Shown: positions 14,041 through 58,539 of the stretch, in pieces | Layout of the letters: every line of letters starts with the position of its first letter | Numbering within the stretch: position 1 is the stretch's first letter | Source of the DNA: Halorubrum sp. CSM-61 | Lineage (GTDB): Archaea > Halobacteriota > Halobacteria > Halobacteriales > Haloferacaceae | DNA: 64,000 nucleotides | Direction: 5' to 3' | Assembly: GCF_003781945.1 (NCBI RefSeq) | Contig: NZ_RJJW01000007.1 | Coordinates: forward strand, 62,001 to 126,000 | The notes under the pieces: model-generated | The model's database searches: none | What the model was told of the DNA's origin: nothing | What the model saw: only the letters and a program-made list of their open reading frames with translations | Translations under genes and position numbers: made by a program

Positions 14041-14170
14041 AGCTAGTTTTGGGTTGAATCGTCATCTATTCATGGTTATTCTCACCACTCAAGGACCGTT
14101 TTTGAATCTCTGAGTTTGAACTACCGGACAAGCGTACGAAATTGTATGGATTCTAGCGCTCCTGAATAGA

Positions 14171-35983: not shown

Positions 35984-36177
35984 TAATACCGCAGATCCAG
36001 ATATCTCTTGGACATAACCGGAATTCGTTTGGGGCCAAGTTGTTCGGCGGCAACAGATTCCTCAGAGCAGAGAAGAACATCCGCTCAGCACCGACCGAGA
36101 TGAACTGAGGCTGCGTGTTACTTGTCCGACGCCATGCATGCGTTTATAGGGTAGAAGAGTCAAAATTAGGTCGACCA

Positions 36178-36282
36178 ATGAGTCTTGATGAGGCGGTTGA
36201 AGAAGCGCTCGCGGCGTACAATATGTCGCGCAGCGAAGAGGCCGAGGAAACGGGCCGAACAGTCGCCACCCTCCAAGACTAA
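36178..36282 (+). CDS. very small putative protein, 34 aa
   Basis: ATG 36178 opens MSLDEAVEEALAAYNMSRSE..., ending at TAA 36280-36282. A TATA-like TTTATAGG lies near 36143-36150, about 28-30 bases upstream, the right distance for a leaderless archaeal transcript. The remaining intergenic DNA on either side (35984-36177 and 36283-36456) shows nothing else I can name. Could be a genuine microprotein or a truncated remnant. Confidence 0.35.
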   Translation: MSLDEAVEEALAAYNMSRSEEAEETGRTVATLQD

Positions 36283-36456
36283 CAGCGCCACTTCACCGAG
36301 GTTTCGAATCTTTTCAGCAAATTCTCACTTCGGTAGCCCTGGCGTTGCCTTCAGTTCCGGATATCCAGCTCGTTCGGTGGCTTCCTTGACGAATCAGTGT
36401 ACTAGCTCTATTCGCTCCGCGGCTTTGCTCTATTGAACTATCGAGGGGTCGCCGTA

Positions 36457-37620
36457 TCACCGCTCTTTGGTACAACTTTGGCATTCGAGACCATCTGAAA
36501 TCGTTTGAAGCGGGTTGCGTTCGGTGAGTTCCCGTTCACACGACGAACATCGAACAGTATCGGCTACACCGATCCCACTCCCGTATCCGAGAGTAACGGT
36601 TTGATGGATGCTACCGTCGATAAGTTCGAAATCGATCTCGCCTCGCTCGTACTCAACTTCCGTCAGAGTAAGCGGTGTGACCTGCACGTCGAGTGAGTGC
36701 CGCTCTCGGATTTCTCGTTGTCGATTGGGAAATCCACTGTCACGGCGCTCCTGTAATTCGTTGAGCGTCTCGTCGAGTTCCTCGTACTCCGATTTGAGTT
36801 CTTTCCGTTCTCGCAACGCTTGGACACGTGAATCCTCGTCTCCTGTGTTGATCTTCTCACTCAGATCGTTGATCTTCGACGACAAGTTCGAGTGTTCTTC
36901 CTGTAGCTCCTGGATACGCTGTTGTTGCATCTGACGGTACTCTTCAACTTCTGAATCTGCCGCACGCGAGGCTTCTCGATGAATGTCGTCGAGCTGCCCC
37001 TGTACGCTTTCCAGCAACAGTTCCCGGGCTGTTTCGAGGAGAGGCCGCACATCTGTCTTGGTCAGCTGTACAGCGCCACTAGTGGCCGACTCGCTCTCTA
37101 CTGTGGTGGTCCCGAGGAATGTCTCCGCCAGTTTAGGAAGGCTCTCCTCTGACCGCGTGTCTACAGCGACGGCGCGGAGAAGCTGTTGCTGGTATTCACT
37201 GACGGTCTCGATACCGACACGAAAGAGAACCACGATGGCTGTGCGGTCGTAATACGGAGTGAACTGTGCGCTCTGCACCTCGACAGAGCTGTTTTGGATC
37301 CACTCCGGACTCTCGATGTCAGATTCACTCTCTATCGACAGCTTGCCAGACGGCGATCGTTCACCCGCCTCACGGAGTAGCTGTTGAAAGAACGCACTCT
37401 CCGGATGCAGCCGTTTCGTTCTATCATCGTCATCGTCTGGAGTACCCTCCCCCCGGATGAGTGTGTGTCTCCCGTGGGTGATCTCGGTGTCTATGTCATC
37501 GGGTACCGACACCAGCCAGTGATCGTCACTTCGCTCGATGGAACAGCCGATAGATCGGAGATACCGTTCTGTGAACTGCTCTACCACAGATTGCGTGACA
37601 GAAATCGAAGCGTCAGTCAT
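36457..37620 (-). CDS. coiled-coil protein with C-terminal zinc ribbon, partner of SNF2 helicase
   Basis: 387 residues. The N-terminal 190 residues are alpha/beta. A long coiled coil covers about 195-290 (ADSEVEEYRQMQQQRIQELQ..., VQALRERKELKSEYEELDETL). The C-terminus has a CxxC...CxxC zinc ribbon (VRCSSCERELTERN...LECQSCTKER). It overlaps the SNF2 helicase gene by 8 bases (37613-37620), its obvious partner. A helicase plus such a coiled-coil protein is part of the helicase-methylase-ATPase defence type I recall as Hma; the assignment is by memory and neighbourhood. It may bridge or target the helicase on DNA. Confidence 0.75.
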   Translation of the reverse strand: MTDASISVTQSVVEQFTERYLRSIGCSIERSDDHWLVSVPDDIDTEITHGRHTLIRGEGTPDDDDDRTKRLHPESAFFQQLLREAGERSPSGKLSIESESDIESPEWIQNSSVEVQSAQFTPYYDRTAIVVLFRVGIETVSEYQQQLLRAVAVDTRSEESLPKLAETFLGTTTVESESATSGAVQLTKTDVRPLLETARELLLESVQGQLDDIHREASRAADSEVEEYRQMQQQRIQELQEEHSNLSSKINDLSEKINTGDEDSRVQALRERKELKSEYEELDETLNELQERRDSGFPNRQREIRERHSLDVQVTPLTLTEVEYERGEIDFELIDGSIHQTVTLGYGSGIGVADTVRCSSCERELTERNPLQTISDGLECQSCTKER

Positions 37621-39367
37621 CGCTTTCCCCTAGGTCGAATCCTTCGAACACGCCGCTATTGAACTCCTCAAGTTTGTCGGCGAGTTCACGCTGTTCTTGG
37701 AGGTCAACTGCCATCGCATCGAAGTCGTTCTCAAGATCGACTTCGGAATCAGCGGCCACCAACCGTTCGAAGATCTCGTCTTCGAAGCTTGTCCCCGACT
37801 CTTCCAAGCGGCTCAGGATTGAGCTCAGTTCTCCGACGCTCTGCTGGAAGAGATCGATCTTGTGGTACAACCGTTCCAGTACGTACTCTTCGACCGTATC
37901 TTTCAACGCCATATTGAAGATGAATACGTCTCGCTTCTGGCCGATCCGGTGTACGCGTCCGATACGTTGTTCAACACGCATCGGGTTCCACGGCAAGTCT
38001 AAATTGACTAATATATTGCAAAACTGTAGGTTACGGCCTTCACTCATAGCGTCGGTTGAAACGAGGATTCCTCCTTCTTCTTCGAAGTCCTCGACAATTT
38101 GCTCCTTCTCGCTGCTTGAGTGCCCGCCGTGGAATGCGTGTACTGTGTATCCCTCCGAGGCAAGCCTGTCGAGGATCTGCTGTTGGGTTGCTCGGAACTG
38201 AGTGAAGACGATGACTCTCCCCATCTCGACGTTGTCACGGGCTTCTTCGACGATATCCAAGAGTCGTTCCTGTTTGGTCACGGTATCGATCTCATCGATC
38301 AGATCTAAGATCGACTCCAGTTCGTCTGCGTGCGTGAGCTCCGACTGGTCGTAGAGTCGCTTCTCGATGGTCTTCTTGAGCGCGACCGGGCTGCTGACGA
38401 CCTCCTTCTGGAGGAGCATCAGTACGAGCTTTTGACCCTGGTCCTGACTGTACGCCCCTTTGACGTAGTCGGAGACTGCCTGGTAGAGTTCGCGTTCCTT
38501 CGGGGTGGGATCGAACGTTCGTGTGTCGATAGTCCGATCTGTGAAATCGATATCCGTGTCTTCGCGTCGGTTCCGGATCATCACTTTGTTCAACCGATCC
38601 TGTAGCTCGTCTCGATTCACCAGTGTCTCCTGATTGCTGTTCACGAAGTAGTGATGGAAGACGTCGCGTGTACCGAATAGCCCAGGGCGGAGTAGCGAGA
38701 CGACGTTGTAGAGGTCAGTCAGTTCATTCTGAATCGGCGTCGCCGTCAGGAAGAACGCGTAGTTGTAAGAAAGCCGGTCAATCAGGTCGTAACGGTCCGT
38801 CTCTTCGTTTTTGACGTAGTGGGCCTCGTCGAGTACCAGAACGTCCCAGTCGCGATCAAGAACCGTCTGACGATGTCGCTCGCTCTTCGCAGTGTCGATG
38901 CTCGCAATGATGTAATTGTGGGCGTCGAAATCCTCGAATTCATCGTCGTAGTTGCAGACGAAGTCGAGACCGAATTTCTCTCGGAGTTCAGCCTGCCACT
39001 GTTTGGCCAGCTGTGCGGGAGTGAGGATGAGGACGGATTCGTCCGTTTCACGGAAGTGCATCTCCTTGAGAATCATCCCGACCTCGATGGTCTTCCCGAG
39101 GCCGACTTCGTCAGCCAGGAGTGCTTTTCCATCCATCTCGAAGAGAGCCCGGTAGGCTGCATCCACTTGGTGTTCGAGAAGTTTGACGGCGTTCTCGTCC
39201 AACTCCTTCAGTGACCGGAGTTCTGAATCAGGCTGGCCTGCTTGCAGACGGACTGCTTGGATACTCTGCAGGTGACTCCCATCAGTACCGTCCTCAGACA
39301 GCGAATCCAGAAGATCGTCAGCAGATTCGTGTGTGACCTCGATATCGACGAGGTCGTACCCGCTCAT
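37613..39367 (-). CDS. SNF2-family DNA helicase/translocase of Hma-like defence system
   Basis: 584 residues from ATG 39365-39367; an upstream in-frame start at 39421 would add 18 residues with unlikely Cys/His content. ATPase domain: ADEVGLGKTIE (K92), VLVLDEAHY (D180-E181-A182-H183), FLTATPIQNELTDLYN. Helicase C domain: RVIVFTQFRATQQQILDRL, LVSTDAMSEGRNLQFCNILVN, and LDLPWNPMRVEQRIGRVHRIGQ. This is the HepA/RapA-like branch. Encoded divergently from the DUF499-type ATPase group, with which I take it to form a multi-gene defence system: the translocase would act on foreign DNA that lacks the host methyl mark. Confidence 0.9.
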   Translation of the reverse strand: MSGYDLVDIEVTHESADDLLDSLSEDGTDGSHLQSIQAVRLQAGQPDSELRSLKELDENAVKLLEHQVDAAYRALFEMDGKALLADEVGLGKTIEVGMILKEMHFRETDESVLILTPAQLAKQWQAELREKFGLDFVCNYDDEFEDFDAHNYIIASIDTAKSERHRQTVLDRDWDVLVLDEAHYVKNEETDRYDLIDRLSYNYAFFLTATPIQNELTDLYNVVSLLRPGLFGTRDVFHHYFVNSNQETLVNRDELQDRLNKVMIRNRREDTDIDFTDRTIDTRTFDPTPKERELYQAVSDYVKGAYSQDQGQKLVLMLLQKEVVSSPVALKKTIEKRLYDQSELTHADELESILDLIDEIDTVTKQERLLDIVEEARDNVEMGRVIVFTQFRATQQQILDRLASEGYTVHAFHGGHSSSEKEQIVEDFEEEGGILVSTDAMSEGRNLQFCNILVNLDLPWNPMRVEQRIGRVHRIGQKRDVFIFNMALKDTVEEYVLERLYHKIDLFQQSVGELSSILSRLEESGTSFEDEIFERLVAADSEVDLENDFDAMAVDLQEQRELADKLEEFNSGVFEGFDLGESDD

Positions 39368-39521
39368 ACGTTCGTAGAAGCAGGTGTGCGTGAAATACGT
39401 TTTGTGACTACCAATCAGCAACCAGGCAGCTGTGTCTCCATTTCGGAAGTGTACATATGCAGCTGAGCTCCCACCGAATCACTAAGTGGATGTGAAATAA
39501 CATTAGGGTAGGTAATCAAAG

Positions 39522-40094
39522 ATGACCCAGTGGGCCAGTCACTACTTAGAAATCCCCGAAGCAATCCGAAGTAACGATGCCCTTCAAACGCAGATTGCCG
39601 ACATCATTCCTGGTCGCCCAATCTATGGAAAGAGGGTAGAAGGTGGTAACCGAGAACAAAATGCACGAGATATTCTCATCGACTTCTTTGACTGCAAAAT
39701 CGAATATCAAGAGGCATATGAACGTGTTCTACAGGAGCTTCCACGGCGCGAATCTCCGCATTCACACAATAATAATACGTTTAGCAGCGATTGGAATGAA
39801 GCCTTGATTCGGATGCAAGCTGTTCGCTTCTACAACCACGGGGCATTTCTACAACTGAAGGAACTCGGGTACTCAGAATGCTATATTCCACATTCGCCAC
39901 ACGAAAACAGAGGGTCAGAGTGTACCAGGAAACTAGCTGGCGACACGTGGGAAATTGACCCGCTACTTAACCGATTGAAAGAACGGTATGATAACGAGAA
40001 CTACGACACGCCCGTAACAATCCCTAGTCGACCGAATTGTACCCACACTCCGATTCCCCCCGATATGTCTGAAGACGACTCACAAAGCCGCTGA
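39522..40094 (+). CDS. unknown protein, 190 aa, in the Hma-like locus
   Basis: 190 residues. The C-terminal half has a Cys/His pattern (YSECYIPHSPHENRGSEC..., and RPNCTHTPIPP near residue 175) that faintly resembles the PxHPNCRC end of Mu-F-type phage head proteins. I would not assign it on that. It starts 155 bases from the divergent helicase and ends 55 bases before the DUF499-type gene, which has its own upstream AT-rich element. Base composition is AT-richer than the ATPase gene. Possibly an accessory or regulatory component; could also be a stray insertion. Confidence 0.6.
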   Translation: MTQWASHYLEIPEAIRSNDALQTQIADIIPGRPIYGKRVEGGNREQNARDILIDFFDCKIEYQEAYERVLQELPRRESPHSHNNNTFSSDWNEALIRMQAVRFYNHGAFLQLKELGYSECYIPHSPHENRGSECTRKLAGDTWEIDPLLNRLKERYDNENYDTPVTIPSRPNCTHTPIPPDMSEDDSQSR

Positions 40095-40149
40095 ATTCGC
40101 GGGACCATAGTGTTTATTGGGTGCCACTGAGGTTTGTTTAAGTATCAAG

Positions 40150-43100
40150 ATGGCACAGACGGGATCCTTACCAAATACGCTCGAAGACACGGTGACCCTC
40201 AGCCGCGAGCTTAGGGAAGAAGGACAGATCGATGGGCAGGTAAAACTCTACAATGTTGACGACGACGACGAGTTCGAGTCTGACGCAGCACTCTTTTTCG
40301 AACGGACGCTGATGACTCAGGGCCTTCGAGAGGCCCTCTCGATTCTTCGTGATTCCTTGACTGGGGACGACCCGCGAGGCACGCACATCCTCTATGGCCC
40401 GTACGGTAGTGGGAAGTCTCACCAGATGGTGGCACTGTACCACTGTTTCGATGATCCCGACGCCGCAGGTGCGTGGGCAAATGATTCGGTTGAAGGGTTC
40501 GACGCTTCGCTTCCGGAGTCGGCAACGCCGATCACGGTTGCGATGCAGAACGAACAGTACGAGTACCTCTGGGAACCGTTCTTCGAGGCGCTTGATTACG
40601 ATCCTGGGACGTTCGAGTCGGGTGGCTATCCCGATATGCAGACGATTCAGGAGGCCGTCGGCGACACCACTGTCGCATTCTTCGTGGACGAATTAGAGGA
40701 TTGGTTCGATACGCTTCAGGGTGATCGAAAGAGCGCGAACAAGGCGTTCCTCCAGTCACTGCTCGAATCGACCGCGCTTTCGGATCTCGAACTCTACACA
40801 ATCGTCTCTGTGCTCCGCGAAGGATCTGAGGTTCACGACATTCTGAATCGGGAACAGGCGGTCGAGGTCAATATGAACAACCAGGTGGACAAGCGCGAGG
40901 TCCTGCGCCACCGCCTGATCGACTCCGTAAACGAGAGTGCGGCGCGAGAGATCGTCAACGGGTACTTCGACGCGTATGACCAAGCCGATGGGCACGTGGA
41001 TCTCCCCGACGACTTGCTGTCGGAGATGCACGATCTCTATCCATTCCACCCTGTGCTTCTGGATGCCCTCGAGACACGCTACTACGCTGATGAGGGCAAC
41101 CAGAACACGCGCGGGATGATCTACCTCTTCTCGAAGGTTCTCTTGCAGATGCAGGATCAGACGGACCTGATCACACACGGCGACATCGACGCCATTGAGT
41201 TCGAGGACGAACTGGCGAAGATCAACTACGAACGACTGAATGCCGCTACCGGTGACATCAAAAGTCGTGTTGACACGGATGAAGTGCCCCACGGTCGTCG
41301 CATCCTGAACACGATCCTTCTCTACTCGTTGAAGCCGAGCGAAGGCGAAGGTGCGGAGGTCTCGGAGATTGTGATGGGTGCCTACCAGACAGGTGACCTC
41401 GTTTCCGATGTCGTCCTCAACCTCGAACGATTGCACGGCGTTGCATGGCACCTCCACAAGCTGAACGGGAAGTACGCCATTCGTGACCGGCAGAACCCGA
41501 ACGCACTCATCCGGAACGCAGCTGTGGATGTGTCGGAGACGTCGGCGAAGGCCGAGATCGCGGACTTCATCACGGATATCTTCGGCTCGAACGCGCACCC
41601 AGTCGGGTTCCGGACGAACGATATGCGGGACATTCCGGACGACCGTGAGGTGAAGGTCGTCGTGAAGGACGGCCAGTGGACCCAGGACGAAGTGAAGAAG
41701 GTCATCACGAACGACGGTCGCGGACGCGAGTGGCGCAACACACTCGTGTTCGTCCAGCCCTCGGGGGACAAGGCCATCGAGTCCGGCACACGGTACATCG
41801 ACAAGGCGCGGTATATTGAGGGCGCGCGACAGGTACTCGCCGACGAGTCTCTCGACGACGAAATCCGCACCTCGATTCGCAGTATGATGGAGCAGGAGGA
41901 GAACGAACTCCGTGAAGAGCTTCAACTCCTGTACGGCGATGTGATCGACGGCGACAATCTGATGGACGATGACGAGTGGGCGAAAGTGGAGCCGATGGAT
42001 CTCGATGTCTTCGTCCTCGACGAGGCGGAACTCGACGCCTCGAACATTGCGGACTCTGCGGCAGCTGACCCGTTCGACCTCCAGTCGCACGTCTGGGACA
42101 TCGCCGAGGACCTTCTGGAGCGACGTGGGGAAATCTCGGTCGAAGACATCTACGAGCAGTTCCTCCGTGACCCGGAACTCCCGATTCCCGGCAGTGCCAA
42201 CGACGTGTTGAACGCAACCGTCGAAGCGCTCGACGGCAAGCCGGTACTCGCCCGTGATACTGGTGGGTTCCGTGACGACCTTTCCGGAAGCTCACTGGAC
42301 ACTGTGCTCGTTCAGCAGGACGACGTGGACGTGTGGGGCGTCGATGACACCGAGCAGGAACTCCGCCAGCGCTTCGGCAGCGGTACGACTGCACTCGATA
42401 TCGGTGACTTCGAACTGGAACTCGTCGAAGACGGTGAAATCTGGATCGATGGCGACAGTCACGACGTCGTGATGCGGGCTATCGGCCGGCTCGCCCGTGA
42501 GGACCAGTACGTCATCGTGAAAGGGAACGAGATCCTCGACAAGCCACAATCCGACGCGACGCTCCGCGACGTCGGCGGTGCGGAGGTCGTCGGTGCGTCG
42601 TCCCTCGTGGACCGTATCGAGGAGCATATCAACGACGACGGGTACGCGAATCTCGACACGATCATCGGAGAGGTTCGGTCGGACGAAGCGGTGTTCCTGC
42701 CGCCGGACGAGACCGAATCGGTTGCTCGTGAGGCGGTCAACGAGTTCCTCGTCGACGACTACGTGCTGGAGGCCGGCGGTCGGTATCTCGGATCGCTCGG
42801 CGACCGGGAGCCGACGACAGTCAAGATTGTCCCGACGGTATCCGACCGAATCGGTGACCAGATTCTGGCGTACATAGAGGACTTAGAACCGGGTGACCAG
42901 TTCACCGTCAACAAGGTCACCGACCGCTTCGACGACAGCGTCACCGAGTATATGGTGCGGACGTTCCTGCTGGAGAACATCGGGAAGGACGAGGAACCGG
43001 AGTACGTTGTCAACACGACCGGGTCGGACAAGGCCACCGACTGGGTTCCCGGCTATCCGTTCCGGAAGGCTGACACAGAGGCTGATACGTGGCGCTTCGA

Positions 43101-43365
43101 GTACAACGGCGACGACGTCGCCGCGATGCGGAGCAAGTGGCGGAACAACCACCAGACGGGGAGCGTCGAATACGGCGACGTCACGTTTATGCTGCCCGAC
43201 AGGGAGGGTGTTCCCAGTGCTCTTCAGGGGACCGCCGACGTCGAGCGTACGCAGGTCAGCTTGACGTTGCGGTCCGAACAGGACTACACAAAAGTGCAGG
43301 ACCTATTCGAGCGGATGCCCGAAGAGGCGTCGAGTTTGAAGGTCGAGATTAGCTTCCAAAAATAA
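40150..43365 (+). CDS. DUF499-type large AAA+ ATPase of Hma-like defence system
   Basis: 1071 residues from ATG 40150; an alternative start 11 codons upstream at 40117 lies before a TATA-like GTTTAAG. P-loop GPYGSGKS (residues 83-90), probable Walker B VAFFVDELEDW and a sensor-like TIVSVLREGSEV. Then a long helical region with YPFHPVLLDAL and QNTRGMIYLFSKVLL, the typical DUF499 middle. The C-terminal third is acidic and contains winged-helix-like segments. DUF499 proteins occur with DUF1156 methyltransferases and a helicase in archaeal and bacterial defence loci, related in style to BREX PglY/BrxC. It is the presumed central ATPase of the set. Confidence 0.88.
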   Translation: MAQTGSLPNTLEDTVTLSRELREEGQIDGQVKLYNVDDDDEFESDAALFFERTLMTQGLREALSILRDSLTGDDPRGTHILYGPYGSGKSHQMVALYHCFDDPDAAGAWANDSVEGFDASLPESATPITVAMQNEQYEYLWEPFFEALDYDPGTFESGGYPDMQTIQEAVGDTTVAFFVDELEDWFDTLQGDRKSANKAFLQSLLESTALSDLELYTIVSVLREGSEVHDILNREQAVEVNMNNQVDKREVLRHRLIDSVNESAAREIVNGYFDAYDQADGHVDLPDDLLSEMHDLYPFHPVLLDALETRYYADEGNQNTRGMIYLFSKVLLQMQDQTDLITHGDIDAIEFEDELAKINYERLNAATGDIKSRVDTDEVPHGRRILNTILLYSLKPSEGEGAEVSEIVMGAYQTGDLVSDVVLNLERLHGVAWHLHKLNGKYAIRDRQNPNALIRNAAVDVSETSAKAEIADFITDIFGSNAHPVGFRTNDMRDIPDDREVKVVVKDGQWTQDEVKKVITNDGRGREWRNTLVFVQPSGDKAIESGTRYIDKARYIEGARQVLADESLDDEIRTSIRSMMEQEENELREELQLLYGDVIDGDNLMDDDEWAKVEPMDLDVFVLDEAELDASNIADSAAADPFDLQSHVWDIAEDLLERRGEISVEDIYEQFLRDPELPIPGSANDVLNATVEALDGKPVLARDTGGFRDDLSGSSLDTVLVQQDDVDVWGVDDTEQELRQRFGSGTTALDIGDFELELVEDGEIWIDGDSHDVVMRAIGRLAREDQYVIVKGNEILDKPQSDATLRDVGGAEVVGASSLVDRIEEHINDDGYANLDTIIGEVRSDEAVFLPPDETESVAREAVNEFLVDDYVLEAGGRYLGSLGDREPTTVKIVPTVSDRIGDQILAYIEDLEPGDQFTVNKVTDRFDDSVTEYMVRTFLLENIGKDEEPEYVVNTTGSDKATDWVPGYPFRKADTEADTWRFEYNGDDVAAMRSKWRNNHQTGSVEYGDVTFMLPDREGVPSALQGTADVERTQVSLTLRSEQDYTKVQDLFERMPEEASSLKVEISFQK

Positions 43366-43595
43366 ACGATACTCTCTGTGGATTACTCTGAAGGCGAGCG
43401 CTCTATAATATCCCCGTTCCGCTTAAGTCCTCTTTAGGAGGGGTCGCCCCTTACCGTATTTCTGTTAAGTAAGTTGCATCCATGTACAAATGCCGACGCA
43501 TCTCTATTTACCTGGTTGATAATCCTTCAAATGGGCAATTGATAATTAAGCGAATATATTATTACAATCCCCATTCATGATGTGGAACAATCAGT
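43366..43595. other. AT-rich junction before the embedded McrBC-like pair
   Basis: No gene found. Composition changes abruptly to A/T-rich. The stretch GAATATATTATTAC (about 43552-43566) lies some 30-45 bases before ATG 43596 and is a likely promoter. It marks where the McrBC-like module was probably inserted. Confidence 0.5.
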
Positions 43596-45557
43596 ATGTC
43601 CGACGAACGTGTTCCAGTCTCGGAACGTCATCAGGCCTTTGTTCAGGTTTTAGATTCGCATATTATAGATCCTGGAGAGCCGAGTGTCCCATTCGAGGTC
43701 GAATTAAAACCTCCACTACCCAAAAACAGCCGGATCTTCCTTCTGAGCCTCACACATTCAACACGAGATAACGAATATAATGTCCAGCCGATAGAACCAG
43801 AAGGAGACGGAGAATTAAATCTTGATATAGACGCATTCGTTGTGTTGGCGGGATATAACGACGAAAAAGACGTATTTGCGCTCTGGGATGCCGATCTTCA
43901 ACGTGAATTCTCCTACTCACAGACGATTCAGATTAAGGAGTCCACGCTAAACAAGGCGGTCAGAGAGGGCATCGCGAGACAGAAACGTCGATTGAGAAAA
44001 ACGCCGCACACAGAAGTCGCGTTAGCTGCTAGACCCGATTCGCTGAAGGAAGCTCTCATTCAACGGTATAAACGAACACGAATTCGATCACTTATTGACG
44101 ACCACTTTCCCGATGGTTGGAAGGATTCGCCCAGCAAACATTACAAGATTGAAGAGACGATTATTCGATTTCTCGAAGACTATGGCGACGACGAGCTAAC
44201 AACCAGTAAACGGCGTCAGTTTGCGCAGGAGGCTGTTGCAGAAGATGAAGATGTGAAAATCGATACGGTCCAGTCCAAATGTACGGAGGATCTTCAAACA
44301 GACCCGGACAGCTCAGACACACTCACAGATGTGTTTGATTCTCGTCTCGAGGAGATTGAAAAGGCATGGAAGGACATCCAAGCGGCGTCAGAATCTGACT
44401 CCTCCGATATCGAAGCTACCGAAACGGATATAGCCACTCCACAATCGTCGCCGGAATCATGGGAGGACGTGGATGAGCTGATTGAGTCGACCGAATCTCC
44501 GTCACAACCGGAGGACTTGTACTTCCCTCGAGGGAATGATGAACGTCCAGTACTCAATCAAATCGACGATGCACTCCGATCCGGAAAACACATTATCATT
44601 ACGGGACCACCCGGATCAGGGAAGACAGCACTCGCCGAGTATGTCTGTCGCCACTACGTTAACGACGACTATAGAGTCGCTACAGCGACCGCTGACTGGT
44701 CAACGTTCGATACAATTGGAGGGTATCGCCCCGAATCAGATGATCAGCTGAGTTTCAAGCCTGGTGTCTTCCTTCAGCGATTGCTTGATCCATCCACTCT
44801 CGAACCGAAAAATGAGTGGCTCGTTCTCGACGAACTGAACCGCGCTGATATCGGGAAGGCATTTGGATCGCTATTTTCCGCGCTCACGCATCGAAACATT
44901 TCCCTTCCCTTTGATATCAAAGGAAACCAAGTGATGCTCTATGGTGATCCCGATACAGTTGACGCAACGCCAGTAACTGCGTACAACTACTACATCCCAT
45001 CCGACTGGCGGTTGCTTGCAACGATGAATACGGCCGACAAATCATCACTCTATCAAATGGGATATGCCTTCATGCGACGATTTGCGTTCATCTCAGTTCC
45101 AGTGCCCGACCCCAATCAAGTGACACCCGACCTCATCAAGCGATATATTAACTGCTGGGATGATATCGAGATTCCCGATGCTGACGCTGACATCTGGCCG
45201 GAAGACGTCACAGATGACGGTGTGGAAAGCCCTGCTGAACAGATTTATGAGGATCTGAGTACCTTGTGGAGCGTTCTATTTGATGAGGAAGAAGGCGCTG
45301 ACCTCCAGATCGGGCCAGCACTGATTAAAGATACAGTTAGCCATACTCTCTTTGAGTTACACACGTCAGGAGAGCTAGACTACGGGAATGCCTTTGCGGC
45401 AAATATACTGCCACAACTAGATGGCATCCCCATTGAAACAGCAACAAGCACAATAGATACACTACATGGAAGGATAGAAGCGAATGGCGCTGGAAGCTCT
45501 CAGTTCTCCAAAGAGGTGCCGATCCGTACTGCTGAGCAAATACTGAGCGATGTCTGA
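43596..45557 (+). CDS. McrB-like AAA+ GTPase/ATPase
   Basis: 653 residues. The first 120 residues form an unassigned N-terminal domain (probable DNA-recognition part); residues about 195-315 are acidic and linker-like. The motor domain has GPPGSGK (337-343), a probable Walker B WLVLDELNRADIGKAFGSLF, RLLATMNTADKSSLYQMGYAFMRRF as sensor, typical of McrB/MoxR. The gene ends with 8 bases overlapping the nuclease gene. Compared with the surrounding Hma-type genes it is visibly AT-richer (more AGA, ATA codons), so it is probably an independent acquisition. Type IV restriction (attack on modified DNA) is the expected role. Confidence 0.85.
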   Translation: MSDERVPVSERHQAFVQVLDSHIIDPGEPSVPFEVELKPPLPKNSRIFLLSLTHSTRDNEYNVQPIEPEGDGELNLDIDAFVVLAGYNDEKDVFALWDADLQREFSYSQTIQIKESTLNKAVREGIARQKRRLRKTPHTEVALAARPDSLKEALIQRYKRTRIRSLIDDHFPDGWKDSPSKHYKIEETIIRFLEDYGDDELTTSKRRQFAQEAVAEDEDVKIDTVQSKCTEDLQTDPDSSDTLTDVFDSRLEEIEKAWKDIQAASESDSSDIEATETDIATPQSSPESWEDVDELIESTESPSQPEDLYFPRGNDERPVLNQIDDALRSGKHIIITGPPGSGKTALAEYVCRHYVNDDYRVATATADWSTFDTIGGYRPESDDQLSFKPGVFLQRLLDPSTLEPKNEWLVLDELNRADIGKAFGSLFSALTHRNISLPFDIKGNQVMLYGDPDTVDATPVTAYNYYIPSDWRLLATMNTADKSSLYQMGYAFMRRFAFISVPVPDPNQVTPDLIKRYINCWDDIEIPDADADIWPEDVTDDGVESPAEQIYEDLSTLWSVLFDEEEGADLQIGPALIKDTVSHTLFELHTSGELDYGNAFAANILPQLDGIPIETATSTIDTLHGRIEANGAGSSQFSKEVPIRTAEQILSDV

Positions 45558-47148
45558 CGACTCACCTCAGAAGCCAAAGCGCGACGAGCTCGTCAACAAT
45601 ATTGCGGAATATCTGGTCGGATACATTGGAGAGGGTATCTCCATAAAACCGGCCCTGAGTGATTTCACCCCAAATATAGACATTAATGATCTCGAGGAGT
45701 TACTGGGATACTACTTCCTACTCACTGGTGAGGAAGTACTCTCAGACAACCTCCCGAGATCGAAGCTCACGATCGGAAATACACCACAGACAGATATCCA
45801 TGGTAATTCGATCGGAGTGCGAGACTTCGTCACGCTACTTGCGTCAAGAGCACGCTCACTTGATATCGAGGTCAAGACAACAACGGAGATCTATAGAGGA
45901 GAAGCCCCCGGCCGAATCGATTGGAACGAGACGATTAAGCATCGATATTCATCTGGTGATTTGACTAAGCAAACATTTGCTTGTCAAACTCAACAGCCGA
46001 CGATCAAATCTGCCCGAAACAAAATCCTCGTTGAACTACTCACTATAATGGAAAATATCTATACACGATTTGATAACCAGGTCGCTGGAGACGACCCTCC
46101 ACAGTGGTTTTACCCATGGCTCAAAGAGCACAATCGAACGCCGCTAAAGGAGCTTCAGCAGCAAGCGACGGCTGTCGGCGAAGTGAATCTCCCAAGCGAT
46201 CTGGGGGAGCTGCCTAATCTTCGCTTGCTCGTTAATACAACACTCAACCAAACACGCCTTTCGAACCTAGAGACGAAATCGATCACTATCTCTGACACAG
46301 AGATACGACAAGTCCGGAGCGATCGGACACCCCTGTATCGAGAGGCCGCAGAATTGTTATCGATGTATCGGCGCTTGATGCGAGAGGATCTAGATGTGGA
46401 CCTAGCGAAATCGATCCTAGGATCGATGCTTATTCAGCCCCCAAACGGGGATCAGGATCTGTCTACACTGTATGAGTTGTATTGGATACTCCGAATATTA
46501 GACACCCACAATGAGTCAAAGCGGAACCTCTTCTCGATGAGCTCAGATGAGCATCTCATTGCTCGATGGACCGAAAAGGGGGCCACGTATCTCCTCTTCA
46601 ATGACTGGGACGGGACATATAATGGGCAAGAATATCTCCATTTCAACACGCCGACTGCGGAAGATCTTTCTCCGCACTCGGAGACAGTTGATGATGATCA
46701 AAATAATACGGACCTCTCTGAAAAAGAAGATCTATACTTGCGAATCCGAAATGTATTGAGCAACCGCTATCGGCTCGAAACGAGTGTTCTGGACTACAGT
46801 CCAGATAGAAAAACGCCGGATATTGTTTTGGTTAAGTTATTAGATTCTGATGATATCCCCCAGATTGAGAGCGTGCTTATCGGAGAGGTCAAGCACTCAC
46901 TGGATACCCCTTATCTTCGAGACGGCCTTCAGCAACTTCTGGAATACGGCGCCTTCGTGAAAATCGGAGAGGATGCCGAACTCCACGCTGGCGCCGACAA
47001 ACCGTTCCTGGCTAGTGACCCGTCCGTCATTGGCTCCCCCGAAGTTGAACTGGGCTACTTTGTTGGCCATCAAGATATCCTCGAGTACGCGGGACCGACC
47101 GGCATACATATCATTGGGTTTGGACAGGAAGAGCAGCAGATTATTTGA
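45550..47148 (+). CDS. McrC-like PD-(D/E)XK nuclease partner
   Basis: 532 residues, overlapping the McrB-like gene by 8 bases. The N-terminal 380 residues are mainly helical and unassigned. Near the C-terminus a restriction-type nuclease core is seen: D424 (PDIVLVKLLD) followed by E446-V-K448 in VLIGEVKHS, the classical D-(X)n-ExK. It does not match standard McrC closely in the N-terminal region, hence McrC-like rather than McrC. With the upstream ATPase it should form a modification-dependent nuclease. The composition is again AT-rich relative to neighbours on both sides. Confidence 0.78.
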   Translation: MSDDSPQKPKRDELVNNIAEYLVGYIGEGISIKPALSDFTPNIDINDLEELLGYYFLLTGEEVLSDNLPRSKLTIGNTPQTDIHGNSIGVRDFVTLLASRARSLDIEVKTTTEIYRGEAPGRIDWNETIKHRYSSGDLTKQTFACQTQQPTIKSARNKILVELLTIMENIYTRFDNQVAGDDPPQWFYPWLKEHNRTPLKELQQQATAVGEVNLPSDLGELPNLRLLVNTTLNQTRLSNLETKSITISDTEIRQVRSDRTPLYREAAELLSMYRRLMREDLDVDLAKSILGSMLIQPPNGDQDLSTLYELYWILRILDTHNESKRNLFSMSSDEHLIARWTEKGATYLLFNDWDGTYNGQEYLHFNTPTAEDLSPHSETVDDDQNNTDLSEKEDLYLRIRNVLSNRYRLETSVLDYSPDRKTPDIVLVKLLDSDDIPQIESVLIGEVKHSLDTPYLRDGLQQLLEYGAFVKIGEDAELHAGADKPFLASDPSVIGSPEVELGYFVGHQDILEYAGPTGIHIIGFGQEEQQII

Positions 47149-47272
47149 GTGGCCTCAAGACTCTCGGGATATTGCTTACTCAACAGTTCACCACGATATA
47201 CGCGTTGACACCCCTGCCAACGGTCGAGTCGACCCAAATCCTTATGCGAGTATACACTCCTCTAATTGAGGT

Positions 47273-49930
47273 ATGGACGGTTCATCTCTAGAGGAACAAT
47301 CTACCAAAGAGGGGCGTCTTCCTATCGAGAAAGGATTTCCGATAGAACGAGTTAATGAAATCGCCGCGAAGGAGGGTCGGGCGAAGATGCATTATCGGCC
47401 CATCTACACGATGCACAAGTGGTGGGCCCGGCGTCTCGGCTGTGTCTTCCGCTCTATTTCGCTGTACTCACTACTTGATGATCCAGAGAAGGTAGATGTC
47501 TTCGAACCCGGGCATGAGAACGAGACACTTGCCGGGTTTAGTGATGGGGACGGCGCTGACTTCGATATCGAGTCGGTGCTTGAACAAGTTGATATCACTA
47601 ACCCGCACAGCCTCTGGGAACTCTATCCCAAAGACGTCCGAGTCGAGGATAAGAAGATTCTCGATCCATTTATGGGCGGAGGCACCTCGCTCGTTGAAGC
47701 CTCACGATTTGGCGCCGAAGTTGTCGGCAATGATCTGAATCCAGTTGCGTGGTTTGTCACAAAGAAGGAACTCGAGGCGGGGCAGACGGATGTCGAGGAG
47801 CTCAAGGATGCGTTCGAGCGTGTAAAACAGGATGTGTCTGATGAGATCCTTCAATATTACCGCACCCCCTGCCCGCACGGAGATCACGACGCCGATGTGA
47901 TGTACAACTTTTGGGCGAAGGAACTCGATTGTGTGTCCTGTGGGCACACAGTCCCGCTGTTCAAGGACTACCGTGTTGCACAAGGGCGATACGAGAACGA
48001 TGATCAGTACAACGTTTTGTGCCCCGATTGTGGCGCAATCACACTAGTTGACGACTGGCAGTCGGAGAGTTCCTGCGGGGAGTGTGGAAATGGATTCACG
48101 CCGAAGGAGGGCAATGTCTCGCGTGGGGGGAAATACAATTGCCCAGATTGTGGTCAAAAGTACGCGATTACCGATGCTATTCAGGAACAGAGCGGGTACG
48201 ACACCCGGTTGTATGCCTTAGAGTATTACTGCGAGCACTGTGACCAGGCGGGCGAAGAGCGAAGCAAGTACAAGGGATACAAGCAAGTCGATCCCCAGGA
48301 TGAGAAACTCTACGAGGAGGCCAGCGAAGCGTGGACATCCAGTGACGAGTTACAGGAGTACGCCCCGACGGAGCATATTCCGGAGGGACACATCCCCTCC
48401 GAACGCAACCCTATTTTCGACCATGGATATGAAGATTGGGAGGATATGTTCACCGACAGACAGCTGCTCTGTCTGGCCACGCTATTACGCTCTATTGACG
48501 AAGAAGTCGCAGACGAGAATCTCAAGGAGATGCTGTTGATCGGGTTTTCGGATAGCCTGATGTTCAATAGCACCTTTTCGATCTATAATCTGAATGCGAA
48601 CAAGATCGAGGGCACGTTCCGGATGAATTCGTTCGTCCCGCAGACGGATTTCGTTGAGAACAATCTTTGGGGGACTGAGTTCGGGCGGGGGACCTTCTCG
48701 AATACAATGGAGAAGGTGTTCAATGGCGTGAAATACGCTTCAAGCCCAACTGAACGATATATTTCGAACGGCGAAACCAAAGAATCCGAGCCATTTACGA
48801 AGGAAATCGGTGGCGACTATACCCTTAATTTGGGCGACGCGCGGACGATTGACTTCGGGGAGAGTGAGTTTGATGCAGTCATTACTGATCCACCATATTA
48901 CGATAATGTTATGTACTCCGAAGTGGCAGACTATTTCTACGTCTGGCAGAAGCTTCTTCTAGAAGACGAGTATCCCGGCTTCGGTTCCGACAAAACACCG
49001 CGAGCAGATAGTATTGTCACGAATCCGTTCCTCGATAAAACTGCTGAGGACTTTGAGTCAGAATTGAGTCAGGCCTTCGGCAATATCCACTATCACCTCA
49101 AATCAGAAGGGGTACTAGCTTTTACCTACCATCACTCTGATTCAGAGTCTTGGGGAGAACTATTAGAGTCACTCTGTGAAACTGGGTTTGAGGTAACGGC
49201 TACGTACCCCATCTCATCAGACCTGAACAAATTCATCTCCGGCGAAGCCGTCTCTTTCGACATCGTTGTAGTCGCCCGCCCAATCGACGAAACAGAACCA
49301 GCGTCATGGAAATCACTCCGCCGCGACATCTACCGTACGGCTCGACGCACCCGAACGCAACTCGAAGAGAACCGCGAGCTCTCCCGAGGTGACATCGGCG
49401 TGATGGAGATGGGCGCATGTTTCCGCGAATACTCCAAGCACCACGGGAAGGTTCAGCGTGATGGCGAGATCATGACTGCGAAAGAGGTCGTCCAGGAGAT
49501 TTATGGCATCATTCAGGAGGCCAGCGACATCGGCGTTGAGGACGTGTTCATCGACCTACTCGACACGTCGAACCCCTCGTTCGACGACATCAATAAGCTC
49601 TGTCGCGGGACGAACGCCACCCCGGATGATCTCAAGGATACCTGCCTGTACAACCAAGATGACGGCTTTGAACTCGGAACCTGGGATAACGAGAAGCGCA
49701 GGGCGTACATTGAGGAGCGCGTCAACGGCGACGGTGGCGACCATCTCTCGGACCTCGACAAGCTCCAGTTCCTGCGGTACCGCTACGAGAAGGGCCAGGC
49801 GGTCCAGAACTACGTCGAAAAATGGGATGTCGATGACGATCTGCGCGAACTCGCCGGTCGGCTCGCCGACGTGACCGGCGACGACACGTACACGCGGGTG
49901 CTCGGAGATCGGGATATCACGAGCTACTGA
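47273..49930 (+). CDS. DUF1156-type DNA methyltransferase of Hma-like defence system
   Basis: 885 residues. N-terminal DUF1156 block with KMHYRPIYTMHKWWARRLG (residues 39-57). SAM-binding motif I is DPFMGGGTSLVEA (131-143) with NDLNPVAW, and the catalytic DPPYYDN is at 539-545 (amino-methyltransferase, adenine-N6 or cytosine-N4). Between them sit several zinc ribbons (CVSCGH, CPDCG...CGECG, CPDCGQKY, YYCEHC), residues about 220-345. Permuted methylase order and zinc fingers are characteristic. It presumably marks host DNA so the helicase/ATPase partners can recognise unmarked DNA. It is separated from the DUF499-type gene by the McrBC-like pair. Confidence 0.9.
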   Translation: MDGSSLEEQSTKEGRLPIEKGFPIERVNEIAAKEGRAKMHYRPIYTMHKWWARRLGCVFRSISLYSLLDDPEKVDVFEPGHENETLAGFSDGDGADFDIESVLEQVDITNPHSLWELYPKDVRVEDKKILDPFMGGGTSLVEASRFGAEVVGNDLNPVAWFVTKKELEAGQTDVEELKDAFERVKQDVSDEILQYYRTPCPHGDHDADVMYNFWAKELDCVSCGHTVPLFKDYRVAQGRYENDDQYNVLCPDCGAITLVDDWQSESSCGECGNGFTPKEGNVSRGGKYNCPDCGQKYAITDAIQEQSGYDTRLYALEYYCEHCDQAGEERSKYKGYKQVDPQDEKLYEEASEAWTSSDELQEYAPTEHIPEGHIPSERNPIFDHGYEDWEDMFTDRQLLCLATLLRSIDEEVADENLKEMLLIGFSDSLMFNSTFSIYNLNANKIEGTFRMNSFVPQTDFVENNLWGTEFGRGTFSNTMEKVFNGVKYASSPTERYISNGETKESEPFTKEIGGDYTLNLGDARTIDFGESEFDAVITDPPYYDNVMYSEVADYFYVWQKLLLEDEYPGFGSDKTPRADSIVTNPFLDKTAEDFESELSQAFGNIHYHLKSEGVLAFTYHHSDSESWGELLESLCETGFEVTATYPISSDLNKFISGEAVSFDIVVVARPIDETEPASWKSLRRDIYRTARRTRTQLEENRELSRGDIGVMEMGACFREYSKHHGKVQRDGEIMTAKEVVQEIYGIIQEASDIGVEDVFIDLLDTSNPSFDDINKLCRGTNATPDDLKDTCLYNQDDGFELGTWDNEKRRAYIEERVNGDGGDHLSDLDKLQFLRYRYEKGQAVQNYVEKWDVDDDLRELAGRLADVTGDDTYTRVLGDRDITSY

Positions 49931-50181
49931 TCCCGGTAGTAGCTCTCCGTACTGTAGAATCGAAAAACCGGTGCGTTTCCTGTGCCCACGTCCGTCTTCG
50001 ACGCCATAGGCTTGCGCCGCCGGGCTTCAGGGACATGGTCACACAGGCTCTACGCAGCACCGTTGCGCTCGATAGTTGATTAGCCGCGCCGTGAAATAGC
50101 GCTTTGGATGGCTGACCGAGATACGCTGTTGGAGTGAATACCACCCTGGGAACTTTCTACCTCCTCTGAACACAGGACCAT
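49931..50181. other. intergenic region between the DUF1156-type and DUF262 genes
   Basis: No coding frame or clear repeat. The lack of overlap and the 250-base gap suggest the DUF262 endonuclease is separately transcribed and is not part of the Hma-like operon. Confidence 0.5.
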
Positions 50182-52311
50182 ATGGAATCGGGAAAGAAGT
50201 CGTTAGAGGAACTGACGACGGCAGGGGTGTTCCACGTTCCGGAGTATCAGCGCTACTACTCGTGGACTGAACCGGAGTGGGATGACCTCTGGACTGATCT
50301 CTACACGCTTCCGCCGGACAAACAGCACTACTTCGGGACGATCATCATCCAGAAGACAGACGAAACGGAAAGCGGTGGGAGTACCGGTGGCTACGGCTCT
50401 TCGAGAGAAAAGCCCATCAACCTCCTTATCGACGGCCAACAACGTCTCACCTCGCTTGCGTTGCTGGTTCGCTCGATGACGGAGTGTCTGGCAGAAATCG
50501 CGCCGGAAACGGATCACGAGGCCGAGATACTCGACGACGTCGAAGAGATGCGCGAGACACTTCTCGTTGAGGACAACATCTATCAGCTCCAGCTCCTTGA
50601 CGAGGAGGACAACAAGTACCTCGAATGGCTACTCACGGGCCACGACGTTCACGAACCGGACCGCCCGTCTCAGCGGAAGATGATCGAGGCGAAGGAATAC
50701 TTCGATGACCAACTTGACGACCTCACCGCATCCCCCGATGTCGATCCCGTGGACGTCGCTACGGAACTCAAGCTACTCTGGGAGACCATCCTCGAACTCG
50801 AACTGATGGTGTACGTTGTTGACGCAGCTAATCCCGAGAAAGCGACGCTCATCTTCGATAGCGTCAACGACCGAGGTCGGTCGCTCTCTACGTTCGACAA
50901 GACGAAGTCGTTCCTGATGCGGATGGCATACCTCGCTGCGGATACTGAGAGCGAGGCCCAAGCGACCATCCGCCGAATCCGGCAATCGTTCGGGGAGATG
51001 TACAACGACCACCAGACGATGTTGGAATCACCATACGTCACCGATATTAGCGATGATGCAGTCCAGCGCTACCACTTCATTTCGTATTTTGACTGGTCGA
51101 ACTCCGACGAGTACAGTGATCCCGCCTTCCTTAGCGAGCTGAAAGAGCACATCCGCAAGCTTCGACAGGAAGATCCACGAGCGTGCTTGGAATACATCAA
51201 AGACTACACCAACAGCTTGGAACGCGGATTCAACGCGTTATCGAAGGTGTTAGACTGTACCGCTGATGATGAAATTTCGACCCTCGTTCAGCGAATACAC
51301 CGCCTCCGTCACGCGACGAAGTTCTACCCGTTGCTCCTCAAAGCGTGGCCGAATCTTGATGACGATGGCAGGCAGGAGCTCCTGAACGCGATTGAGACGT
51401 ACATCTTCCGCGTCTACTCGATTGGGAACCATCGAAGTCACACCGGTGAGTCCAGCCTCTACGTCCGCACGCGAAACATCAGCGAAGACAGTCCAGCCGA
51501 TATCTGGGTAAGCAAAGTCGTCTCCCTAATGAACCGGTACGAGGACGACTCGCAGTTCCGACGGTCCCTTTCAGCTGCGGATCTGTATTCGAAAGCGAGC
51601 TCGCAGGACCTCCGGTATCTCTTCTACTTCTACAACGAACACCGAGCTGACGAGAGGGGTGAGCGCGGTGGACCATCGCTCACGGAAGCAATGAGCAACG
51701 AATACACGGTCGAACACATTTGGCCACAGAGTCCCGACGAACTACCCCTCGAGGATGCCGACGAGTATCCCAGTCCTGAAGCGCGGTACGACGCATACGT
51801 TGATCGACTCGGGAATCTCACGCTTGCGAGCAGACCGTGGAACTCGAAGTGGGGGAACGCTACATTCGAGACCAAGTGTGATGAGGGATACGTGGAGTCG
51901 AAGCTCTGGGTGCAATGGGATATCCAGAACGACTACGACGAGTGGTCCGTGGAAAATATCGAAGACCGCGAGGAGACGATAATCGACTTTGTCCTCGACG
52001 AATGGGCGACGCCCGAGACACGTCTTGGAAATGTCGAAGAGCCGGCGGACGCGATTGACCGGCTTACGAAGGAAGAACAGTTCGTTCTCAAGGCACTCCG
52101 CCAGAACACTGGTGGCGCGGTCCGTCGTGTTATCCACGGGGACGCGACCGAGCTTCCAGACTCACCGTTCGAAGAACCGAACTCGAACGGTACAGAACGA
52201 AATGAGGTAGGTTCGATTCTGAGCCGTCTCGAGAACGTTGGCCTCGCTGAGCAGAACAAGCATACCTGGTCGCCCACCGACGAGGCGCTTGGCATTGATC
52301 TCCCGACCTAA
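50182..52311 (+). CDS. GmrSD-like DUF262/HNH type IV restriction enzyme
   Basis: 709 residues. DUF262 (GmrS/DndB-like ParB fold) motifs: VPEYQRYYSW (19-28) and LIDGQQRLTSL (DGQQR 84-88). The middle is helical (DRGRSLSTFDKTKSFLM). C-terminal DUF1524 HNH nuclease: YTVEHIWPQ (H512) and RLGNLTLASRPWNSKWGN. A small winged-helix-like segment follows at about 650-700 (SILSRLENVGLAEQNKHTWS). Single-chain GmrSD enzymes cut DNA with modified (glucosylated or hydroxymethylated) cytosines in bacteria; targets in haloviruses are not known. Possible partner: the small gene at 52430. Confidence 0.88.
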   Translation: MESGKKSLEELTTAGVFHVPEYQRYYSWTEPEWDDLWTDLYTLPPDKQHYFGTIIIQKTDETESGGSTGGYGSSREKPINLLIDGQQRLTSLALLVRSMTECLAEIAPETDHEAEILDDVEEMRETLLVEDNIYQLQLLDEEDNKYLEWLLTGHDVHEPDRPSQRKMIEAKEYFDDQLDDLTASPDVDPVDVATELKLLWETILELELMVYVVDAANPEKATLIFDSVNDRGRSLSTFDKTKSFLMRMAYLAADTESEAQATIRRIRQSFGEMYNDHQTMLESPYVTDISDDAVQRYHFISYFDWSNSDEYSDPAFLSELKEHIRKLRQEDPRACLEYIKDYTNSLERGFNALSKVLDCTADDEISTLVQRIHRLRHATKFYPLLLKAWPNLDDDGRQELLNAIETYIFRVYSIGNHRSHTGESSLYVRTRNISEDSPADIWVSKVVSLMNRYEDDSQFRRSLSAADLYSKASSQDLRYLFYFYNEHRADERGERGGPSLTEAMSNEYTVEHIWPQSPDELPLEDADEYPSPEARYDAYVDRLGNLTLASRPWNSKWGNATFETKCDEGYVESKLWVQWDIQNDYDEWSVENIEDREETIIDFVLDEWATPETRLGNVEEPADAIDRLTKEEQFVLKALRQNTGGAVRRVIHGDATELPDSPFEEPNSNGTERNEVGSILSRLENVGLAEQNKHTWSPTDEALGIDLPT

Positions 52312-52429
52312 CGCCCAACTACCGCGATCGGTATAATGCACTTCGACGCGTTAACTCCCTGCAAGACCTCCGACGGGACGATTGAGGTACCGCACCCCTT
52401 TTTGACCCCTCGGCGACGTGCTATAGGTA

Positions 52430-52813
52430 ATGGCAGCCCCCGGACAAATACCCGGACAGTACAATCTCGTCATTGAAGGCGCCTACGAGACTTTCGAACA
52501 CCAGATCCCCGTGAAGGAGTTCCTCCAGCGGCTCAAGGAAGATGATGTTCCCGAGACAGTGAGTGTCGTCGGACTGTCGGATGCCCTGAGTGACGAAGAC
52601 CTGGCGAACGAACTCGCCCGTGAGATGGATCAACGTGCGAACGATCTGGAGTATCAAAGTCCCACGATACAGTTCGTCATCGAAGGGTCGTTTCATCGAA
52701 GCGGGAAGACCTACGACCTTCGGTACGATGACGAGCTCTACTCGCTTCAGCAGGTCTTTGGTCCACAACTTGAACGAAAAGAAGGTGGGGAGTGGCTCGT
52801 CGCGCCGTTTTAA
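52430..52813 (+). CDS. hypothetical protein, 127 aa
   Basis: 127 residues. It looks like a compact alpha/beta protein with repeated beta segments (YNLVIEGAYETFEHQIPV; IQFVIEGSFHRSGKTYDLRY), the two VIEG-containing units suggesting an internal repeat. A helical acidic middle separates them. It starts 118 bases after the DUF262 gene on the same strand; a T-rich stretch in the gap (CCCCTTTTTGACCCC) may act in termination. Function unknown; may be an accessory to the restriction enzyme. Confidence 0.6.
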   Translation: MAAPGQIPGQYNLVIEGAYETFEHQIPVKEFLQRLKEDDVPETVSVVGLSDALSDEDLANELAREMDQRANDLEYQSPTIQFVIEGSFHRSGKTYDLRYDDELYSLQQVFGPQLERKEGGEWLVAPF

Positions 52814-52886
52814 TCCTCAGCAGTGGTCATAACCGCCGTATGTAGTGTCGTACTATTTCCAGAAGGGGTACAGAATTGACCGCACC

Positions 52887-55247: not shown

Positions 55248-55305
55248 TCAACTATCTAATTAGTGTGAAACCAGGTATAAAGAGACTGTCGGACGAAACT
55301 ACTGT

Positions 55306-58295: not shown

Positions 58296-58539
58296 TATCG
58301 AATACAGGTCGCCCACAGTATATAAAAACCCGTTCAAAACAAATTTTGGGACCTGTCCAGGATGCTATTTTAACCGCATAAGTGAGCTCGGTCTGCAGAA
58401 TTTTGCTCCGAAACAACCGATTAGCGATTTCGACTTACAGAACGCCCTCAAGAGCATCCTCAGCCAGCACAAGCATAGATTAGCGATCTGTGACGCGGGC
58501 GTTTTTCACTCCCCTGCCAGCAGGTGGAGGAATCATATC

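Follow-up and report, generated by a model that had tools for sequence, protein, structure and literature searches.

In a 64,000-nucleotide stretch of Halorubrum sp. CSM-61 (NZ_RJJW01000007.1, positions 62,001-126,000; hereafter the window, in whose coordinates all positions are given), we analysed two overlapping genes that sit directly between the open reading frame (ORF) of a DUF499-type ATPase (40117-43365) and that of a DUF1156 DNA methyltransferase (47273-49930). Judged by comparison with related loci, this pair is exchangeable cargo in a slot of the surrounding host system. The interpretation we lean towards is that it forms an exchangeable McrBC-type restriction module in a cargo slot of a DUF499/DUF1156 host, and that its MTaX1 domain most likely reads the marks of the neighbouring methyltransferase. 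The elements of the pair and its borders, all on the + strand, are as follows (aa, amino acids).

43366-43595, +, AT-rich gap ahead of the pair, with a guanine-plus-cytosine (GC) content of 0.417
43596-45557, +, slot-1 cargo gene 1, MTaX1-McrB-type GTPase of 653 aa, assigned from MTaX1 and AAA_5 Pfam matches, E. coli McrB structures and motifs
43749-44057, +, MTaX1 domain (aa 52-154), proposed DNA or modification reader (PF20296, E 1.3e-12; structure comparison)
44589-45083, +, AAA_5 (McrB GTPase) domain, aa 332-496 (PF07728, E 1.5e-17)
45550-47148, +, slot-1 cargo gene 2, divergent McrC-type PD-(D/E)XK nuclease of 532 aa, assigned from a 17-homologue alignment and an AlphaFold model compared with McrC chains
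46816-46893, +, codons of the catalytic motif P423-D424 ... E446-V447-K448, invariant in the 17 homologues
47149-47272, +, methyltransferase leader and right edge of the slot, of a second type with CCAAATCCTTATGCG; probable promoter

A cargo slot with defined edges

We surveyed slot 1, the interval from the ATPase stop codon to the methyltransferase gene, in 39 haloarchaeal loci and two named plasmid loci (L152, Haloglomus halophilum; L153, archaeon DL31), 41 in all. Cargo is present in 35, five are empty, with the ATPase and methyltransferase genes flush and overlapping by 1-4 bases, and one (L092) holds only the leader. The cargo families identified include GmrSD/HEC-06, HEC-05, DitA, SoFic, Ppl, TmtA, PDC-S19, PDC-S05 and MTaX1-HNH, and over the 39 loci 48 cargo genes lie on the minus strand and 32 on the plus strand. 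The pair itself occurs in only two of the 41 loci, the window and L089. A preliminary description of this DNA had suggested that one defence system was nested in another as swap-in cargo, a view that an invariant pair would have overturned. The comparison bears it out: the corresponding interval in relatives is empty or filled by unrelated defence genes.

The same counts make it very improbable that the pair belongs to the essential core of the host system. An MTaX1-McrB/McrC pair does occur, convergent and at a fixed place at the operon end, in a sister DUF499 system (L138-L141, L155, L158), but in the present host the pair is nearly always absent, five loci have no cargo at all, and the system owns a core McrBC, encoded at 55306-58337 and separate from the cargo pair. 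The empty and alternatively filled slots rule out a core role in this host. The sister system also has a 296-aa gene (annotated as alkaline phosphatase in two plasmids, with a weak PglZ match) and a 284-aa D12 adenine methylase.

Both edges of the slot can be placed. On the left, DNA similarity to L063, L064, L065, L089 and L152 stops at 43355-43384. On the right, a 49-base leader before the methyltransferase start is common to 28 of the 34 non-flush loci, whatever their cargo (consensus GAGAACGCACACTTATGWGG...ATACTGAATA); it matches at 35-48 of 49 bases, compared with at most 24-28 in shuffled sequence, and the flush loci lack it. The second leader type, with AATCCTTATGCG, is found in the window, L071, L073 and L152. 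We infer that the leader is a dedicated promoter, which would keep the protective methyltransferase expressed whatever cargo lies upstream; in the flush loci, read-through and translational coupling would serve the methyltransferase gene instead.

Loci whose backbones are nearly identical but whose cargo differs provide a direct view of the exchange. Between the window and L064, a locus from another family, DNA identity is 95.9% over 35488-43361 and again 95.4% over 49307-57488; the two have no DNA match over the cargo, and in the first part of the methyltransferase gene they match along 106 bases only. The swap breakpoint falls within that gene, at 49307. Identity to the Haloglomus halophilum plasmid L152 is 97.0% over 12.9 kb up to 43355 and 91.7% over 11 kb from 47318. 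Slot 1 of L152 holds an MTaX1-HNH gene where the window has MTaX1-McrB and McrC, and because only the MTaX1 part can be aligned between the two (34% at the amino acid level), the sensor was kept while the effector changed. Empty slot, leader-only slot, many alternative cargoes and backbones of this kind make up a complete natural series, which shows how defence genes swap inside another defence system between defined edges, set by the stop codon of the ATPase gene and the conserved leader of the methyltransferase.

Composition and integrity of the pair

As the preliminary description had it, two genes overlapping by 8 bases lie between the ATPase and methyltransferase genes, and both ORFs are real. 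It had the module begin at 43366, which is the first base past the ATPase stop; the pair proper starts at 43596, after the AT-rich gap, which possibly holds a promoter belonging to the pair. The module is also AT-richer than its surroundings, as had been claimed, and not of identical composition: GC is 0.483 for 43366-47148, whereas the window as a whole stands at 0.563 and the ATPase gene at 0.589; of the window stretches with the same length, only 0.3% reach so low a value. Low GC is not peculiar to the pair, however. The part of the methyltransferase gene that encodes the N-terminal two thirds of the protein (0.512) and a 786-aa gene at 52887-55247 (0.494) are AT-rich as well, so the pair does not stand out by composition alone.

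A chance or decaying insertion without function might have the AT-rich composition seen here relative to the neighbouring genes, but the ORFs and motifs are intact and L089 keeps both genes with the same 8-base overlap. Identity between the two pairs is 71% for gene 1 and 65% for gene 2, and nonsynonymous changes are few (dN, nonsynonymous divergence, of 0.18 and 0.24, respectively) with synonymous sites near saturation. Conservation in L089 and homology rule out chance ORFs or decay, and we give this explanation next to no weight.

An McrB-type GTPase and a probable, divergent McrC-type nuclease

By its AAA+ core motifs gene 1 is an McrB-family GTPase: it has a Walker A motif (GPPGSGKT), a Walker B motif (LVLDELNR) and the NxxD form of the McrB signature (MNTADKS), and in a comparison with PDB sequences its match to E. 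coli McrB, the structure of which is solved, has E 8.8e-13. Ahead of the GTPase lies MTaX1, which scores 48.7 bits on PF20296, for which the gathering score is 25. The domain is the same as that described under this name and, as the name says, it adjoins methyltransferases; what differs here is that it is fused to one of two effectors, an McrB GTPase or an HNH nuclease, which are swapped behind the sensor. A role for MTaX1 in the discrimination of modified DNA has been proposed (PMC10853773).

The best matches of an AlphaFold model of the MTaX1 region (43596-44495) are PD-(D/E)XK-fold proteins: I-Ssp6803I, with Z 8.9 over 132 residues at 4.1 A, and SPARDA chains with Z up to 7.3, values that lie near the level of common arrangements. 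Within the region D98 is invariant and a later lysine is not. On the model, MTaX1 may be an inactive nuclease fold serving as a reader.

Gene 2 was harder to place. Its sequence matched nothing in Pfam (including PF10117), NCBIfam, PADLOC or the PDB, and a PDB search with either the sequence or its profile returned nothing useful. The 17 homologues that share the catalytic residues also share an invariant N-terminal G...G...W..T.K.R pattern. Its AlphaFold model has a mean pLDDT (predicted local distance difference test) of 74, and the first three Foldseek matches of the model are all McrC chains of McrBC complexes (6ut6, 6ut7 and 6ut5), although these are weak, at E 0.0045 to 0.13; neither this model nor that of the MTaX1 region obtained a Foldseek match under E 0.001. 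When the model was re-aligned with VIA, E. coli McrC chains led with Z 8.2, but at a root-mean-square deviation (rmsd) of 13-14 A, and the McrC of T. gammatolerans aligned over 126 residues at 3.3 A. McrC proteins combine a DUF2357-like N-terminal region with a PD-(D/E)XK nuclease. We assign gene 2 to the McrC type with good but incomplete confidence, from motifs and predicted fold. The earlier characterization of this nuclease (D424...E446-V-K448) as only distantly McrC-like was apt, given that no profile matches it and McrC chains head the Foldseek list.

A scan of genome contigs with the gene 2 protein found two loci only, one on the Halorubrum saccharovorum contig that carries L089, the other a weak match in an archaeon. 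In a tree of McrC proteins, the window protein groups (support 100/100) with those of L089, L110 (at a contig edge), Haloplanus rallus (in the sister system) and L109 (at a DUF499 locus). Stand-alone haloarchaeal McrBC pairs fall outside that clade, and two of them carry MrcB_N.

MTaX1 appears to follow the methyltransferase

MTaX1 is rare, being found in 9 of 391 Halobacteria genomes, and in eight of the nine it lies near DUF1156 methyltransferases. Four of the nine cases are in slot 1, four in the sister DUF499 system (L138-L141), and one (L137) is beside a superfamily 2 (SF2) helicase and an ABC-type ATPase. A phylum-level draw of 247 genomes had MTaX1 in the window's genome only. Additional plasmid cases, in L152, L155, L157 and L158, adjoin methyltransferases of the DUF1156 family or of DUF499 systems. 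Plasmid L157 of Halosegnis marinus (positions 543-14395) packs three DUF1156 methyltransferase genes into 14 kb, with HNH and MTaX1-HNH genes between them.

We mapped ten classes of slot-1 cargo on trees of both the methyltransferase and the ATPase. Four of the five slot-1 MTaX1 loci fall in one clade of the methyltransferase tree, where 2 changes suffice to explain the label (p ~0.0003); the same five loci require 5, the maximum, on the ATPase tree (p 1). Among the ten classes, only MTaX1 tracks strongly and on the methyltransferase tree only. Of the others, a regulator family of 308 aa agrees with both trees, families of 70 aa and 93 aa fit the ATPase tree better, and GmrSD fits neither: on the methyltransferase tree its 8 loci require 7 changes (p 0.45). 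Over the ten classes, linkage to the methyltransferase was not upheld as a general property of slot-1 cargo. Simple physical linkage would be expected to act on MTaX1 and GmrSD alike. With the window, L152 or near copies excluded, the association still has p 0.004-0.005. Since ten cargo classes were examined, the result is suggestive and not conclusive; together with the preference of MTaX1 for DUF1156 loci, it is suggestive of a restriction effector matched to the neighbouring methyltransferase. Within that methyltransferase, aa 321-520 are hypervariable across loci (~50% mean pairwise identity), while aa 681-885 are conserved (mostly >90%).

Several points weigh against this interpretation. 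The association depends on five loci, of which the window is one, and p rises to 0.065 once the window and L065 are both removed. In L136, MTaX1 is paired with a methyltransferase that does not belong to the tight clade. Since the labels have ancestry and physical linkage in common, the tracking could be hitch-hiking. The function of MTaX1 is solely a literature proposal (PMC10853773), and the McrC fold match is weak (Foldseek E 4.5e-3; VIA Z 8.2 at 13-14 A rmsd).

A possible mode of action and its alternatives

McrBC-type enzymes are textbook destroyers of methylated DNA. By analogy with them, the MTaX1 domain would load McrB-type GTPase rings onto DNA according to its methylation state, the rings would translocate on DNA while the McrC partner stimulated GTP hydrolysis, and that partner would cut through its PD-(D/E)XK nuclease. 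Host DNA would be spared, and DNA without the right mark, or with a wrong one, would be cut in what we infer to be a defence function. Matching to the methyltransferase would follow if cutting is blocked by the host's own marks, or else must not be set off by them. These findings make the role of MTaX1, a domain of unknown function, accessible to test and bear on why McrBC-type enzymes so often adjoin methyltransferase genes.

A stronger version would make slot 1 a plug-in socket for effectors matched to the methyltransferase allele, in which the sensor co-evolves and is co-transferred with that allele, the effector (McrB GTPase plus McrC, or an HNH nuclease) is freely exchanged and the McrBC-type enzyme hits unmarked DNA instead of acting as a modification-dependent type IV enzyme. 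We put this forward tentatively, as possible yet short of an even chance.

The preliminary description suggested that the pair may attack modified DNA escaping the first system. On this reading, the main rival, the pair would be independent type IV cargo that cuts foreign modified DNA, covering viruses whose modified DNA evades the host system, and would have no functional tie to the methyltransferase. The classical modification-dependent system is McrBC, other type IV enzymes (GmrSD/HEC-06 and HEC-05) are frequent in slot 1, and a GmrSD-type enzyme, BrxU, has been shown experimentally to form a complementary pair with the BREX system beside it (PMC8565348). However, MTaX1 follows the methyltransferase tree and slot-1 GmrSD does not, and those members of the pair's McrC clade with readable context are at DUF499/DUF1156 loci, with stand-alone McrBC outside. 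We consider this explanation somewhat unlikely, although sequence cannot decide between it and a methylase-matched module.

A third account, which we regard as improbable, would make the pair a guard or abortive effector, restrained by normal methylation and attacking DNA, the host's included, once a virus disables the methyltransferase or the host system. For BREX-related systems, it has been suggested that auxiliary and backup nucleases act as a second line (PMC12839542), and a methylase-matched sensor would fit such a role. Yet no regulator or antitoxin-like partner specific to the pair was found, and sequence alone does not separate a guard from ordinary restriction.

The host system and its classification

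Around the pair, relatives keep a fixed order: first, on the minus strand, the genes for the coiled-coil protein and the SNF2 helicase; next, on the plus strand, those for the ATPase, methyltransferase and 127-aa protein; and last the convergent McrC and McrB genes. Between these core genes lie three variable slots: slot 1; slot 2, from the methyltransferase to the 127-aa gene; and slot 3, from the 127-aa gene to McrC. The genes of the window are listed below.

36457-37620, -, core predicted coiled-coil protein of 387 aa, beside the helicase in most relatives; no confident family
37613-39421, -, core SNF2-family helicase of 602 aa (PF00176 1.4e-35, PF00271 3.4e-25; best PADLOC match DrmD 5e-85, HmaA 4e-57)
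39522-40094, +, hypothetical accessory protein of 190 aa, only in the closest relatives L063, L064 and L143
40117-43365, +, core DUF499-type AAA+ ATPase, HmaC-like (PADLOC HmaC 6e-18; PF04465 1.3e-10); its stop codon is the left edge of slot 1
47273-49930, +, core DUF1156 adenine-type DNA methyltransferase, HmaB-like (PADLOC HmaB 5e-36; PF06634)
50182-52311, +, slot-2 cargo, type IV restriction protein of the GmrSD/HEC-06 family (HEC-06 1e-57; PF03235, PF07510)
52430-52813, +, core protein of 127 aa, no family match, kept in relatives
52887-55247, -, slot-3 cargo, protein of 786 aa, no family match, present in L064, L072-L074, L143, L152 and L153 and replaced elsewhere
55306-57066, -, core McrC of the host (PF10117 3e-10), kept in relatives and annotated 'McrC family protein' in L152 and L154
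57066-58337, -, core McrB-type GTPase of the host, without MTaX1 (AAA_5 1.4e-17)

The description of the host as Hma-like stands in part. The methyltransferase and ATPase match HmaB and HmaC in PADLOC (5e-36 and 6e-18), but both are far below the NCBIfam antiphage equivalog cut-offs, and the system departs from canonical Hma in its nuclease-less SNF2 helicase and its own core McrBC. Specifically, the nuclease-fused helicase of Hma, or BREX-related (BR) type 1, is absent, as Pfam shows helicase domains only and the gene is divergently oriented. For the HKD nuclease-helicase and DUF3780 of BR type 2 there was no Pfam match among the locus genes scanned, and for BR type 3 there was no PglZ match in the window locus, the fast-evolving iSTAND not having been searched for. 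Nor is the system DISARM: the helicase alone is DrmD-like, and PADLOC models found no DrmA or DrmB among ten neighbouring genes apart from helicase cross-matches. By gene content the host is Hma-like and belongs with the DUF499-centred BREX-related systems (PMC12839542), without the defining extras of types 1 or 2. It shares with them a DUF499 ATPase, a DUF1156 methyltransferase, an SNF2-type helicase and auxiliary nucleases in the locus, and differs in lacking a helicase-fused nuclease and in having a core McrBC pair; 'Mcr' is absent from the main text of that paper.

Relation to known systems

The pair resembles E. coli McrBC in its Walker A and B motifs and NxxD GTPase signature (MNTADRS in the aligned E. 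coli McrB), in its two-gene order and in a downstream McrC-type partner with a PD-(D/E)XK nuclease. It differs in its MTaX1 reader, in an McrC that escapes profile detection, in the catalytic EVK and in its position inside a methyltransferase operon. Membership in the CoCoNuTs was considered and rejected, the motif of gene 1 being NxxD while the definition of that group (PMC11090510) has NxD and long coiled coils. The same census mentions, and defers to a forthcoming paper, a methyltransferase-associated NxxD McrBC branch, which the pair resembles in its signature and in its genomic tie to predicted DNA methyltransferases.

The embedding of defence genes in Hma-type systems ('guilt-by-embedding', HEC; Payne et al. 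2024) is already published, as reported in PMC12988326. Those genes resemble the present case in being embedded in an ATPase/methyltransferase/helicase system, relatives of HEC-06 and HEC-05 occupy slots here, and the host of the pair differs from Hma. With PADLOC-DB 2.0.0, gene 1 matched no HEC model and gene 2 matched nothing, while the slot-2 GmrSD does match HEC-06. In the literature searched, which was incomplete, we found no description of a haloarchaeal system with a core McrBC, of slot edges and leader, or of an exchange between MTaX1-McrBC and MTaX1-HNH. The anatomy of the slot and the link between sensor and methylase thus appear to be new.

Further observations

No relative of the DUF499 ATPase was found in phage records. 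The ATPase of L143 (Salinigranum rubrum, 5750-8997) is split into two overlapping frames, probably by a frameshift, and no gene is listed at this place in PLSDB. A second, distant DUF499/DUF1156 locus is present in the window's genome (contig C11, 424642-430839), with 31% identity in the ATPase and 35% in the methyltransferase. The 786-aa slot-3 protein has 97-98% identity in L064. At 30537-35983, a PD-(D/E)XK nuclease gene and a UvrD helicase gene adjoin the system, and similar nuclease and UvrD pairs flank the system in L152 and L154 and the sister system in L155.

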